NCBI GenBank assembly: GCA_004195515.1
Contig: PSPR01000007.1
Coordinates: forward strand, 1-32,998
From: Methanobacteriota archaeon
Lineage (GTDB): Archaea > Thermoplasmatota > Poseidoniia > Poseidoniales > Poseidoniaceae
Direction: 5' to 3'
DNA: 32,998 bases
Below the pieces are notes generated by a model that saw nothing but the letters and a program-made list of their open reading frames with translations, ran no database searches and was not told the DNA's origin. This document shows positions 27,550-32,998 of the stretch, piece after piece; the first letter of the stretch is position 1; each line of letters starts with the position of its first letter. Both the position numbers and the translations under genes were made by a program.

Positions 27550-30339
27550 ATGTCTTTGGAAACTTGGCATGATAAATCGATAGAAGATGCTATCCATGAA
27601 TTTAACATCCCCTTAGGTGGCCTTTCTTCAAAAGATATAAGTTATCGTCAAGATAAACACGGCCTGAATAAATTGGAAGAACCGACTAAGATTCCACCTT
27701 TTTTTAGATTTCTTTCACAATATCACGATCCGCTCAACTATTTATTGATGGGAGCGGCACTAGTCGCATTAGCTATTCATCCGAATGAGCCAGGTGATGC
27801 AATTTTTATTGGCATTGTTTTAACCGCAAATGCATTTTTTGGATTTTGGCAAGAGAGTCAAGCTGAACAGGCGATGGGTGCCCTCAAACAAATGTCAGTT
27901 TCTCAATGTGTGGTTTGTAGAGATGGAATGGAATCTGAAATATCTACCGAGGAATTGGTACCAGGCGATATTGTCAAACTTGAGGAAGGCTTGAATGTCC
28001 CCGCAGACATAAGATTGACAGAGTCCTGGCAATGCAAGGTGGACGAATCGGCATTAACCGGTGAATCGATGCCCACAAATACACAATGTGAGGCCTTACC
28101 CTTCGATACAATTCTTGCAGACCGCACAAACATGCTCTACATGGGTACGACTGTGTCCACAGGACGAGCCGTGGGAATCGTAATCGCTACCGGCATGAAA
28201 ACCGAATTGGGTAAAATTGCAAGCGATGTTGCTAGTGCTGAAACTCCAAAAACACCATTGGAACACAAATTAGAATCCCTTGGCAGATTCCTTGGTTTCA
28301 TAGCATTGGTTGTAGCAGCCTTATTGGTATCCATCGAGATGATAATTACATATTTTGATGGTGGTGACCTTTGGGAAGCCGCGATTCAACAATTGATAGT
28401 TGCAATAGCAATATTTGTTGCTATCGTCCCTGAAGGGCTACCAATTATATTGGTTACAACTCTCGCCCTCGGTATGAGAAATATGGCTCGGCATAAAGCC
28501 ATAATTCGAAGAATGAAAGCTGTAGAAACTCTAGGATCTACAACCGTTATATGTACTGATAAAACAGGCACTTTGACAAAGAATCAAATGACTGTTCGTC
28601 GGTTAATGATGCACCAAGGAAATTATGACATTACCGGTGAGGGCTTTGAACCAACGGGTACTTTATCGATGGGCGGAACTGAATTAAGCGATTCTGAAAT
28701 GTCAGAAATGCAAGGTGATCTAGGGTTTAGATTAGCTGCGGCTTGCCTATCGTTATGCCATAATTCACAGATCGCAGAAGTCGATGGTCAATGGTTAGCA
28801 ATTGGTGACCCTACCGATAGTGCATGTGCTGTCCTTGGTTACAAAATCAATGGTTCGGTTCGGAAATTTGCCACTCGCCACCCAAGGCGACATGAATTTT
28901 TCTTCGATACAGAAAGAAAGAGAATGTCAGTATTACATGAGTACGAGGGTGAACGCTGGCTTTTTTCCAAAGGTGCAGCAAACGGTTACAAAAATTTGGC
29001 AAAGTGGATAATCAAGAATGGAAAAATTTCCCCAATAGAGGAAGAAGACATTCAAAAAACAATCATCGCAAATAGAAGTATGGCCTCCAATGCCATGCGT
29101 GTTATCGCACTTTGTGCTAGAAAAGTTTCTGACGGTGATAATTTGGCAGAAGTTGCAACTATGGAAACCGATTTCATTTTCCTTGGTTTGGTTGGAATTA
29201 TCGATCCACCTAGAGCAGAGGTATACGATGCAATTTTGCGCTGTCAAGCTGCTGGTATTCGTGTCAAGATGATCACAGGGGACCAACAAATTACCGCACA
29301 AGCGATTGGTGAAGATTTACAAATTACCAAACCTCACATCGATGCCTATAATGGTAGAGAATTAGAGGAATTGAATGATGATGCAATGAGAATGGTTGTC
29401 CAAAACACCTCTATTTTTAGCCGGGTATCCCCTGAACAAAAAATGAAAATTGTAATCGCACTCCAAGACGAGGGTGAAGTTGTTGCAATGACAGGAGATG
29501 GTGTTAACGATGCTCCTGCTCTGTCGAGGGCAAATATTGGTATCTCAATGGGTATTGCAGGTACGGATGTAGCTAAAGATGCATCAGACATGGTCCTCCA
29601 AGATGATAATTTTGCAAATATTGTTCATGCGGTAGAAGAAGGGCGGAAAATTTATGCAAACATTAGAAATTTCGTTAGATATCAGGTTTCTACAAATGTT
29701 GCTGCGGTGGCATTATTGATCTTTGCTTCCTTCGTATTCCAATGGCCATTACCATTAACAGCAACCCAGATTCTTGTGATTAATATATTGATGGATGGGC
29801 CCCCAGCAGTAGCTTTAGGTGTTGAAAAGAAGCATTCGAATGTTATGGATAGGCCACCACGTCCTGTCGATGAATCTTTGCCAAATCTCAAAGATCTCGG
29901 ACTGATATTCTATCTCGGTACCGTTATGACCATAGGCACACTAATCGTCTACAATCTTGCATTAACTCAAGGAGAGGCTTATGCTAGGACCATGTGCTTT
30001 AGCGTCTTCATTATCTTCCAATTATTCAACGTTATGAATTGTAGAAGTGTCGAAGATAGCGTCTTCAAATTGGGCTTATTCAGCAATAGAGCGATATATT
30101 TAGCGATCTTTATCTCGATGACATTATTGCTCATAGCGGTCCAAGGAGCAAATCTCATTGTGCCCTTTACAGATTTCGCAATAGGCGAACTGGTTTCCAC
30201 CATTCCATTGAAAGCGAGCGATTGGATAATCATTGTTTCAACTGCAAGCATTGTCTTTATCTTTGAGGAATTCAGGAAATTATTGGTCAATGCTGGTTTG
30301 TTCAAGGTTGGTACTAACCGTCGTAGAAGAAGGGCTTGA
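27550..30339 (+). CDS. P-type cation-transporting ATPase, type II (probably Ca2+)
   Basis: This 929-residue protein pumps a cation across the membrane using ATP. It begins with a cation-ATPase N-terminal domain. Next come TGES (170-173) in the actuator domain, VAIVPEGLP (about 291-298) in helix M4, the phosphorylation site DKTGTLT with Asp337, MITGDQ, and the hinge GDGVNDAPAL (about 648-657). Six C-terminal helices follow. M4 PEGLP and M6 INILMDGPPAVALG keep the Asn and Asp of Ca2+-ATPases, with Met where SERCA has Thr, as in plasma-membrane Ca2+ pumps. Ca2+ is therefore likely; Na+ or Mn2+ cannot be excluded. The stop lies 71 bases before the ATG chosen for mqnE, or overlaps a possible TTG start of it by four bases. 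Confidence 0.93.
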   Translation: MSLETWHDKSIEDAIHEFNIPLGGLSSKDISYRQDKHGLNKLEEPTKIPPFFRFLSQYHDPLNYLLMGAALVALAIHPNEPGDAIFIGIVLTANAFFGFWQESQAEQAMGALKQMSVSQCVVCRDGMESEISTEELVPGDIVKLEEGLNVPADIRLTESWQCKVDESALTGESMPTNTQCEALPFDTILADRTNMLYMGTTVSTGRAVGIVIATGMKTELGKIASDVASAETPKTPLEHKLESLGRFLGFIALVVAALLVSIEMIITYFDGGDLWEAAIQQLIVAIAIFVAIVPEGLPIILVTTLALGMRNMARHKAIIRRMKAVETLGSTTVICTDKTGTLTKNQMTVRRLMMHQGNYDITGEGFEPTGTLSMGGTELSDSEMSEMQGDLGFRLAAACLSLCHNSQIAEVDGQWLAIGDPTDSACAVLGYKINGSVRKFATRHPRRHEFFFDTERKRMSVLHEYEGERWLFSKGAANGYKNLAKWIIKNGKISPIEEEDIQKTIIANRSMASNAMRVIALCARKVSDGDNLAEVATMETDFIFLGLVGIIDPPRAEVYDAILRCQAAGIRVKMITGDQQITAQAIGEDLQITKPHIDAYNGRELEELNDDAMRMVVQNTSIFSRVSPEQKMKIVIALQDEGEVVAMTGDGVNDAPALSRANIGISMGIAGTDVAKDASDMVLQDDNFANIVHAVEEGRKIYANIRNFVRYQVSTNVAAVALLIFASFVFQWPLPLTATQILVINILMDGPPAVALGVEKKHSNVMDRPPRPVDESLPNLKDLGLIFYLGTVMTIGTLIVYNLALTQGEAYARTMCFSVFIIFQLFNVMNCRSVEDSVFKLGLFSNRAIYLAIFISMTLLLIAVQGANLIVPFTDFAIGELVSTIPLKASDWIIIVSTASIVFIFEEFRKLLVNAGLFKVGTNRRRRRA

Positions 30340-30410
30340 TTGATTTGAGGGAAAAACCGCTCAAAAGTTCGATTGAGAATTCATGGACAAGTGACAAGCA
30401 TCTGGCCGGA

Positions 30411-31565
30411 ATGAACCCTGAATGGAACAATTTGCTCACATCCGAATTATCTTCACGATCATGGCCAAAAGAATTCGTTCAAATTGTTGTCAAACTCAGT
30501 GATGGCATCCCACTTTCAAGAGAGGATGGCAAATTCTTATTCGAAACATCAAGGTTGGATGTAGTGGGTGAACTAGCAAATATTGTTAAGCGAAGTAAAT
30601 TTGGAAAACAAATATTTTTCAACGTTAATGTCCATATTAATCAAACCAATATTTGCACGCTAGCGTGTAGGTTTTGCGCCTTTCGAAGAGGGAGAAGAGC
30701 AGAAGATGCATACGCGATGAGTCCTCAACAATATGTGGATGATATTTCACTATACGCAGATGAAGTTGATGAAATCCATTCCGTTGGTGGACTTCACCCC
30801 GATTGGGATATATCATATTTTGAGAAAATGTTTAGATCTGCAAAATCTAAATTTCCAGAGATTCATATCAAAGCATTAACCGCGGTGGAAATTAAACATA
30901 TTTCCAAATTATCGAATATTAGTATATTAGAAACATTGACAAAACTATCAAAGGCAGGGCTGGGGTCATTGCCAGGTGGCGGTGCAGAGATTCTCGATGA
31001 TGATGTTAGGGCAATTATTTGCAGAGGAAAAGAATCTTCTCAAGAATATTTAGACATTCACGGGATAGCTCATTTAATTGGAATCCCAACAAATTGTACG
31101 ATGTTATTTGGAACGATAGAAACTATCGATCAAAGATTAACCCATTTGCTCAAATTAAGAGAACAACAGACATTATCGAATGGTTTCCAATGTTTCGTTC
31201 CCTATCCTTACCTTGCTGATAACTCAAGATTGCACGAGGCACAACTGGCAAGTGCCAATGAAATATTGAGGGTCATCGCGGTATCAAGGCTTATGTTGGA
31301 TAATATTCCTCACATCAAAGCATATAGAATGAATATAGGTGATCATATGGCAGAATTAGCACTTAGTTTCGGTGCGGACGACCTCGATGGTACTGTTCAA
31401 AAGGAGACAATAATGCATCTAGCTGGGTCTTCGTCCCCTTTGGATCACGATAAAGAATCATTGACAAAAATCATTTCAAATATAGGCGCGGTCGCCGTTC
31501 AAAGAAATACGGTTTATACAAAGTTCTCGACATATCGAAGAATATCACTTCCAATAATACAATGA
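30411..31565 (+). CDS. mqnE: Radical SAM aminofutalosine synthase-like enzyme (MqnE)
   Basis: MqnE couples a deoxyadenosyl radical to enolpyruvyl-benzoate in the futalosine route to menaquinone. The protein has 384 residues from ATG 30411; a TTG at 30336 (overlapping the previous stop) would add 25. Motifs: NVHINQTNICTLACRFCAF, with the Cx3Cx2C iron-sulfur site at Cys82, Cys86 and Cys89; GGLHP; KALTAVEI, typical of MqnE rather than MqnC; GLGSLPGGGAEI; and a TNCTMLFGTIET segment. The last departs from the usual TNATMLYGHIE, and the region FVPYPYLADNS also differs from the common FIPLAFHP, so this is a divergent member or a paralogue with altered substrate. mqnA follows after nine bases, supporting MqnE. 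Confidence 0.85.
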   Translation: MNPEWNNLLTSELSSRSWPKEFVQIVVKLSDGIPLSREDGKFLFETSRLDVVGELANIVKRSKFGKQIFFNVNVHINQTNICTLACRFCAFRRGRRAEDAYAMSPQQYVDDISLYADEVDEIHSVGGLHPDWDISYFEKMFRSAKSKFPEIHIKALTAVEIKHISKLSNISILETLTKLSKAGLGSLPGGGAEILDDDVRAIICRGKESSQEYLDIHGIAHLIGIPTNCTMLFGTIETIDQRLTHLLKLREQQTLSNGFQCFVPYPYLADNSRLHEAQLASANEILRVIAVSRLMLDNIPHIKAYRMNIGDHMAELALSFGADDLDGTVQKETIMHLAGSSSPLDHDKESLTKIISNIGAVAVQRNTVYTKFSTYRRISLPIIQ

Positions 31566-31570
31566 GGTAA
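31564..31570 (+). promoter_or_regulatory. Ribosome-binding site of mqnA
   Basis: GAGGTAA overlaps the mqnE stop codon and lies four bases before ATG 31575, fitting coupled translation of mqnE and mqnA. Confidence 0.55.
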
Positions 31571-31574
31571 ATTT

Positions 31575-32363
31575 ATGGCTTGGAGGAAGACTATTGGGAG
31601 AGTGGAATTCGTAAATTGCGAACCGCTTTTTTACAATATTGACCCCAGTTGGAAGGTCCTTCCTGCTCCACCTTCTTGGTTAACAGGGCACCTTTTGCGA
31701 AGAGATTGTATCCTAGCCCCAATTCCTGCAGCCGATTATGCTCGTTATCACAAGGAATTGGTATTAGTACCTGATATCGCTATTTCTAGCAAAGGTGAAG
31801 TTGGTAGTGTATTATTACTCGGAAAAATGGAATTTTCTAAGATGAAAACCATAGCATTACCAACCGATTCAACTACTTCGGTGGCATTACTAAAATTTTT
31901 AATTAAATCTAATCGATTAAATCCAGATTTGGTCGAAATGGGTCCGGATTTGGATTCTATGCTTGCACGATGTGATGGTTGCCTTTTGATTGGTGATAGA
32001 GCACTAGAAGCCGCCAATACCTATCCCGAATTGGTGACTTTAGATTTGGGGGCACAATGGAGGAAACTGAGTGGTTTGCCAATGGTTTTTGGCGTTTTTG
32101 CGACTCGGAGAGATTCAAATGTAGAAGATGTAAAAGGGGCGCATCGAGAATTATTACTTCGATTAATCAATTTTGAGACCGATCCAGTAATTAGAAATGA
32201 AGTCCTTGAATTGAGTTCGATTAAATCAAATCAAACAATTGAAAGAATGGATAAATATTTTGGGGAGGTTATCAATAGAATGGATGATGAAGATCTCCAA
32301 GGCCTTTCTGCGTTTTTGCGTATGGGATGCGGTTTGGAAAACGAAGCCGAATTTGCTTGGTGA
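31575..32363 (+). CDS. mqnA: Chorismate dehydratase (MqnA)
   Basis: MqnA turns chorismate into 3-enolpyruvyl-benzoate, the first step of the futalosine menaquinone pathway; the product is the substrate of MqnE. The 262 residues start at ATG 31575. Family signs: IGRVEFVNCEPLFY at the N-terminus, APIPAADYARY, VPDIAISSKGEVGSVLLL, LPTDSTTS and IGDRAL, in a periplasmic-binding-protein-like fold without a signal peptide. The length is close to the family norm. The gene ends two bases before the stop of the convergent basic protein. Confidence 0.92.
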   Translation: MAWRKTIGRVEFVNCEPLFYNIDPSWKVLPAPPSWLTGHLLRRDCILAPIPAADYARYHKELVLVPDIAISSKGEVGSVLLLGKMEFSKMKTIALPTDSTTSVALLKFLIKSNRLNPDLVEMGPDLDSMLARCDGCLLIGDRALEAANTYPELVTLDLGAQWRKLSGLPMVFGVFATRRDSNVEDVKGAHRELLLRLINFETDPVIRNEVLELSSIKSNQTIERMDKYFGEVINRMDDEDLQGLSAFLRMGCGLENEAEFAW

Positions 32364-32365
32364 TC

Positions 32366-32644
32366 CTATTCCTCTTCACCAATAAAACCTGATAAGAGGT
32401 CACTCTGCATTGCTTTTTCATCGATCTTCTTAGCTTGTTTTTGCTTCTTTCTTCGAACCGGCTTTCTTCGTTTTTTCTTCGTGGGTTCTGGAACGGGTTC
32501 TGGAACGGGTTCTGGCTTCCTAACTTTCTTAGTTTTAATTTTCCGTTCTATAACAGCTTCTTCTGAACCCATCGAAATCACCTTTCGTTTTGTAGCGATA
32601 ACAACCGGCTCATCTACAGCCAGCCTTCGTCTTTTCGTTTTCAT
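32366..32644 (-). CDS. Small, highly basic protein with a Pro-Glu repeat linker
   Basis: I do not recognise a family. The 92 residues start at ATG 32644; a TTG at 32663-32665 would overlap the preceding stop by four bases and add seven residues. The N-terminal 40 residues are mixed charge and basic (MKTKRRRLAVDEP); then comes a PEPVPEPVPEP linker, then a very basic run (KKKRRKPVRRKKQKQAKK) and an acidic end (GFIGEEE). There is no signal peptide or membrane helix, so it is probably cytoplasmic and may bind nucleic acid or an acidic partner. It lies directly downstream of a membrane protein with a DDE-repeat cytoplasmic tail. Confidence 0.6.
   Translation of the reverse strand: MKTKRRRLAVDEPVVIATKRKVISMGSEEAVIERKIKTKKVRKPEPVPEPVPEPTKKKRRKPVRRKKQKQAKKIDEKAMQSDLLSGFIGEEE
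32483..32515. repeat. 12-bp tandem repeat encoding the Pro-Glu-Pro-Val linker
   Basis: GGGTTCTGGAAC is repeated 2.75 times without mismatch. On the minus strand it encodes the PEPV units of the basic protein's linker. Confidence 0.85.
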
Positions 32645-32661
32645 TATGGGTCCGTCTTTAT

Positions 32662-32998
32662 TCAATGAAACATCTTGCTTGGCGGTACTCGCTTCGGTGG
32701 AGTACGTATTTCAGGTGGTTCTACGAATCCGGTATTCACCTCATCCTCGAAATCCTCAACATCATCATAAACCTCCTCGTCATCTTCATCATCTTCGTCA
32801 TCTTCGTCATCGAGATTCATCTCGATGATGTTATCCCTACGAATCCAAATGAGAACCAAAACCATACATACGACCAAGTAGAACGAAACGGCAAGCGGGT
32901 GGGCGGCCCAAAAAATGATTTTTTGTGTATCGGTCGGTTCAGCAATCACTTCTTTTTCAAGTGTTAATTCTACAATCTCCTCACCATTATTCCACCAT
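32662..32998 (-). CDS. Membrane protein with extremely acidic cytoplasmic tail, C-terminal fragment (runs off right edge)
   Basis: The frame ending at 32662 is open to the right edge of the window: upstream of the GTG at 32949 the coding sequence reads NNGEEIVELTLEKE without a stop. It is therefore the C-terminal part (about 111 residues) of a longer protein, and the GTG is not a real start. The visible part has a probable extracellular beta segment, one membrane helix at about residues 34-52 of the fragment, a positive WIRRD stop, then a tail with DDE repeats (three in a row plus more acidic runs), and a Pro-rich end with some basic residues (PPKRVPP). The topology should be outside-helix-inside. 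The next gene, encoding a very basic protein, begins 17 bases later, or overlaps it by four if it uses TTG. The function is unknown. Confidence 0.75.
   Translation of the reverse strand, partial: WWNNGEEIVELTLEKEVIAEPTDTQKIIFWAAHPLAVSFYLVVCMVLVLIWIRRDNIIEMNLDDEDDEDDEDDEEVYDDVEDFEDEVNTGFVEPPEIRTPPKRVPPSKMFH
32777..32812. repeat. 9-bp tandem repeat encoding Asp-Asp-Glu units
   Basis: Four 9-base units of TCGTCATCT type stand head to tail, with small differences at one or two bases. They encode the DDE repeats of the acidic tail. Repeat number could vary between strains. Confidence 0.8.

Follow-up and report, generated by a model that had tools for sequence, protein, structure and literature searches.

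Oppositely charged stretches at a Ca. Poseidoniales locus are very probably two pieces of one surface-protein gene

The window, i.e., the whole stretch of DNA that was analysed (32,998 nucleotides), comprised bases 1-32998 of a contig of 42,200 bases. The minus strand of positions 32366-32998 was read as two overlapping open frames: 32997-32662, which the end of the window leaves open, and 32665-32366. In the first frame, DDE repeats come after a hydrophobic segment, with 24 D/E and 5 K/R among the 58 residues past that segment, whereas the second encodes 99 aa with 30 K/R and 15 D/E. Each frame contains a short tandem DNA repeat, 9 bp x 3.9 (32777-32811) in the acidic frame and 12 bp x 2.8 (32483-32515) in the basic frame. 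The frames overlap by four bases if the basic one starts at the TTG at 32665 and are 17 bases apart if it starts at the ATG at 32644. A preliminary description of this DNA had reported the opposite charges, the repeats and the spacing, and all three were confirmed.

As assembled, the C-terminal part of a surface protein (32662-32998, minus strand) comprises the end of a second ectodomain, a predicted membrane helix (about 32898-32842), an acidic juxtamembrane block (32740-32823) with the DDE repeats and the 9-bp repeat, and an RTPPKRVPP linker. The break point, at which the reading frame shifts, lies at 32666-32679 on the same strand and the premature stop closing the acidic piece at 32662-32664; in relatives, the same region sits inside a frame of ~800 aa. 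The basic part of the cytoplasmic tail (32366-32665, minus strand) could be aligned with the tail ends in 22 relatives of the same genus. Within this part, the 12-bp repeat found by the repeat scan codes for PEPV units, a spacer within the basic block, and the terminal helix motif IDEKAMQSDLLSGFI was located at 32381-32425, both on the minus strand.

The gene order at the locus is P-type ATPase, MqnE/MqnC-like radical SAM protein, MqnA, the surface gene (convergent), MqnD-like and primase-like, the names MqnD and primase being our own labels for frames of this contig. The MqnA frame matched PF02621, no NCBIfam family matched the MqnA and MqnD frames, and the MqnE model TIGR03700 scored 397 bits, under its cut-off of 434.55. 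Nine out of nine named loci with flanks had the same gene order, three of them (L124-L126) being the most distant. Menaquinone (futalosine-type) genes flank the surface gene across the order, at 30336-32363 in the window and at 9530-12347 in L003, which is also from this genome. At three loci of genus g5 the surface gene was kept and the mqn genes were not found, and the menaquinone neighbours were set aside as functional evidence on that ground. A copper-type P-type ATPase gene lies divergent beside the surface gene (9530-11512 in L003, and in two relatives at 6041-8125 in L073 and 6320-8311 in L078); its position next to a gene whose second ectodomain resembles metal-binding folds is possibly due to chance. 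A Sigma-70-type promoter scan, which is not meant for archaea, gave no result.

The acidic and basic stretches lay in one frame at 59 of 60 fetched relative loci. Complete single-frame tails were obtained by automatic reading at 58 of these, and L102, inspected separately, was one 845-aa frame; the remaining locus, L071, stops at a contig end and was unjudgeable. The acidic piece matched 33 of 61 genomes, this one included, with the best matches in frames of ~800 aa. In one relative (L005), a single frame holds the ectodomain, the membrane segment, the acidic block and the basic block, and its protein matched 109 of the 170 genomes of the family, again including this one. One stop within the match was seen in three rows of this family search (L053, G095 and G070), and in L053 the stop is the natural tail end. 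When the basic stretch was searched alone in the 61 genomes, 20 other genomes were matched at E<=1e-3, all within frames of 527-844 aa and at the same place, and no separate basic gene was found at that threshold; weaker rows (E 0.001-0.05) included frames of 87-128 aa and a 1880-aa frame with an internal stop.

The data suggest that the acidic and basic stretches are very probably two pieces of one gene, broken twice in this assembly. The preliminary description had taken them for two adjacent genes, which did not hold: the first frame is cut by a scaffold gap within the gene, and relatives carry both stretches in one frame. It had proposed to test whether the two always occur together; they do so, for the unexpected reason that they are one gene. 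The basic protein usually occurring without the acidic-tail gene, which it had named as contrary evidence, was not observed, every match at E<=1e-3 lying inside a long frame.

From its hydrophobic N-terminus, the full protein runs through a seven-bladed WD40-like propeller, a loop and a second folded domain to a single membrane helix; the acidic and then the basic block follow, and most genera add a terminal helix. The DxDxDGD-rich loop after the propeller is presumably of the Ca-binding type. A structure was modelled for the relative L119 from a 13-row alignment (mean pLDDT 70.9). It showed the propeller at 23-330, the Asp-rich loop, the second domain and, at about 581-602, a membrane helix, followed by a tail (604-757) with pLDDT <50 and without confident structure, and a terminal helix at 760-771. 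Hydropathy and the model predict a single-pass topology with the propeller outside and the tail inside. The L119 propeller was similar to WDR5, a seven-bladed WD40 protein (Z 32.3, rmsd 2.6, 289 aligned), and to the WD40 domain of Thermomonospora PkwA (5yzv_B; Z 31.7, rmsd 2.3, 280 aligned). Unlike in these WD40 proteins, the propeller here is predicted to be extracellular and belongs to a chain with a membrane helix and a charged tail. The Pfam WD40 model PF00400 scored above its 27-bit cut-off in five of seven proteins scanned, one of the five being the ectodomain piece of this genome with 36.4 bits; the remaining two reached 21.4 and 19.5 bits. When the full-length protein from a relative was searched, no NCBIfam family was found. 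PMC6461757 notes thrombospondin genes in Ca. Poseidoniales, and the present protein may be comparable to them in its DxDxDGD-rich Ca-binding-type loop and putative surface location.

The second domain folded alone with a mean pLDDT of 84.3. Its first seven structural matches were the bacterial periplasmic metal-binding proteins ZrgA, PA4063 and the Ang-1 domain of HupE/UreJ-2, with Z 7.5-8.6, near the level that the tool calls common; at a sequence identity of 4-8% and an rmsd of 4.4-5.1 this is a resemblance only. Foldseek gave E 5.3e-4 against Ang-1. The invariant positions of the domain were C, R, S, R, E, C, C, G, D and P, and because no His is among them, metal binding by the predicted fold is not indicated and the resemblance is a lead only. 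No family was found for the second ectodomain at E<=1e-3 in Pfam (best 0.05) or among PDB sequences (best 0.27).

Tail charge was determined in 58 tails, a set without L003, which is from this genome, L071, which a contig end cuts, and L102, which fell below the BLAST cut-off. In 55 of the 58, the 25-residue stretch of strongest acidity came before that of strongest basicity, the exceptions being three g5 tails with the extremes reversed, and the contrast between acid and base went beyond shuffles at 0.05 in 57, the other one being a g5 tail. The mean net charge was -2.7 (sd 6.0). The charges of the two half-tails anti-correlated over the 58 tails (rho -0.59, uncorrected for kinship). Within genera, where L076 was omitted as well, rho was -0.47 in g1 (23 tails, p 0.02), -0.44 in g11 (15 tails, p 0.10) and -0.07 in g4 (8 tails, p 0.88), the last two not significant. 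D/E and K/R totals correlated with rho 0.72, mostly via tail length, compared to a non-significant 0.20 per length. The sequences suggest that the acid-then-base order is conserved and that charge balance is at most loosely kept, and the co-variation of charge that the preliminary description had proposed to look for was thus weak.

The terminal helix was conserved in part of the family. Its g1 form, with E, L and F invariant in 22/22, was read from the alignment, an initial regular expression having recovered 0/23 in g1 owing to spacing. A related pattern was observed in 16 of 17 proteins of g2, g4, g5, g6 and g7, and in 0/17 of g11 and g9. Tails of genus g9 (L094 and L095), and also L134, have a zinc-ribbon-like CxxC pair inserted, together with an EF-hand pair; the EF-hand pair of L094 matched PF13499 with E 5.1e-11, and intracellular calcium might be sensed in some relatives.

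A charge-pair tail general to all surface proteins was considered and rejected: in 400 kb of G036 (19% of the genome), 276 frames yielded 13 candidates in which the only membrane segment was C-terminal, and in none of these did the tail go in a comparable way from acidic to strongly basic. Eleven weak acidic-tail matches elsewhere, out of many such rows, were inspected as well; nine were other proteins, mostly with an acidic stretch and then a GP-rich linker or another C-terminal part. Four of the other proteins (L128, L130, L131 and L133) have short basic motifs, and L134 is a more distant form of the same surface protein. Giant surface proteins with frames of 2,000-3,000 aa (L127, L129, L135, L137, L128, L130 and L131) were seen in the same genomes; at their ends, a membrane segment leads into acidic sequence, then into a GP-rich linker and lastly into a similar short C-terminal part, as if their tails formed several inner-tail classes.

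The preliminary description had suggested that the charged stretches pair at the inner membrane face, with the basic protein recruited there. The stretches do belong together, and their order is conserved; the recruited soluble partner fell away. Since both are one polypeptide, electrostatic pairing would be possible only within one chain. Tentatively, the tail may be a disordered two-block chain in which an acidic spacer presents basic docking motifs. The acidic block next to the membrane would repel the anionic inner leaflet and keep the basic block away from it in the cytosol. The KR motifs TKRKRL, KTRKVK and KKRKPVRRK and the terminal helix would serve as docking sites for a negatively charged partner, be it nucleic acid, ribosome or acidic protein, and docking would link the outer propeller to the cell interior. 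DNA or RNA binding by the basic tail is suggested by the KR motifs alone. A complete transmembrane tether, in which the outer WD40 propeller would be linked via the acidic spacer and the basic KR/helix tail to the nucleoid or ribosomes, we regard as improbable; if true, the cell surface would be coupled to the cytoplasm in a widespread Ca. Poseidoniales protein.

It is also conceivable, if short of probable, that the single product has no specific partner and that the charged blocks merely keep a disordered tail soluble and set its orientation in the membrane. Much of the tail is freely variable in both sequence and length, disorder is predicted, and other large surface proteins of these genomes have acidic juxtamembrane stretches too; however, the near-invariant K/R, E, L and F in the 22 relatives exceed the needs of bulk charge. 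For the two-block docking tail, a definite partner, if there is one, would give a handle on the connection between surface and interior in these cells.

Two faults were located in the gene as assembled here. Contig bases 32999-33000 are NN, so that the window ends at a two-N scaffold gap inside the gene, and past the gap the same gene runs on upstream with the propeller ectodomain. The profile of the second ectodomain is covered only at positions 1-109 of 191 before the gap, and by our reading of the alignment about the last 20 profile positions reappear after it, which suggests that the two Ns conceal roughly 60 codons. The second fault lies in the tail linker. The spacing from the KRTPP-type motif to the NKDGP motif was 25-33 residues (median 27) in 16 of the 22 same-genus relatives, those in which both landmarks were locatable, compared to 14 bases here; about 60-85 bases are thus missing, out of frame. 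Twenty of 21 near-invariant tail columns, i.e., those conserved in at least 20 of the 22 relatives, were kept (5/5 in the acidic piece and 15/16 in the basic piece), indicating no decay. This favours either an assembly fault or a very recent private change as the source of the linker deletion, and we regard an assembly fault as the more probable of the two.

A genuine recent split of the gene in this lineage, by a real out-of-frame linker deletion after which the basic part was lost or re-initiated at the overlapping TTGA, is unlikely. The frame break is present in the sequence, the TTG start has a four-base overlap with the TGA stop, and the linker is variable in length among the relatives measured. 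However, no split was seen among fetched relatives with a whole tail, the downstream frame is without decay, and the scaffold gap lies only about 320-335 bases from the linker break in the same gene. Two co-operating genes in tandem, for a membrane protein with the acidic tail and for its soluble basic partner, are scarcely credible, this one assembly being the only one with such an arrangement against the 59 single frames and a basic stretch that is never alone at E<=1e-3, and a partner pair recurring as neighbours was accordingly rejected. For the single broken gene, the case is a warning: with a frame break and a scaffold gap, a single two-block tail can pass for a two-gene charge pair.

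No description of this protein was found in the literature searched; it is a conserved surface protein without a name, and its acidic-to-basic inner tail is unusual. It is conserved in abundant uncultured ocean archaea of Marine Group II (Ca. Poseidoniales), where its gene keeps a constant position, flanked by menaquinone genes. The second ectodomain was detected in 80 of 193 sampled genomes of the order, and judging from these sequences the protein is common but patchy in an order in which many genomes are incomplete. Zero close relatives were matched by the 95-aa acidic piece in the genome contig collection, and 13 loci by the full alignment (A1) in the same collection. No matches to the surface protein were obtained among viral contigs or plasmids. 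The named relatives were Ca. Poseidoniales or Euryarchaeota metagenome-assembled genomes, except for one record titled 'uncultured Rhodobiaceae bacterium' (L118, CALDQY010000261.1), which carries a Poseidoniales locus, has 25,445 bases like G148:C261 and is probably mislabelled. Two copies of the gene were observed in one metagenome-assembled genome, L076 (G005:C14) and L075 (G005:C13), and likewise at G078:C11 and C72; L076 resembles genus g4, and mixed binning is therefore likely.
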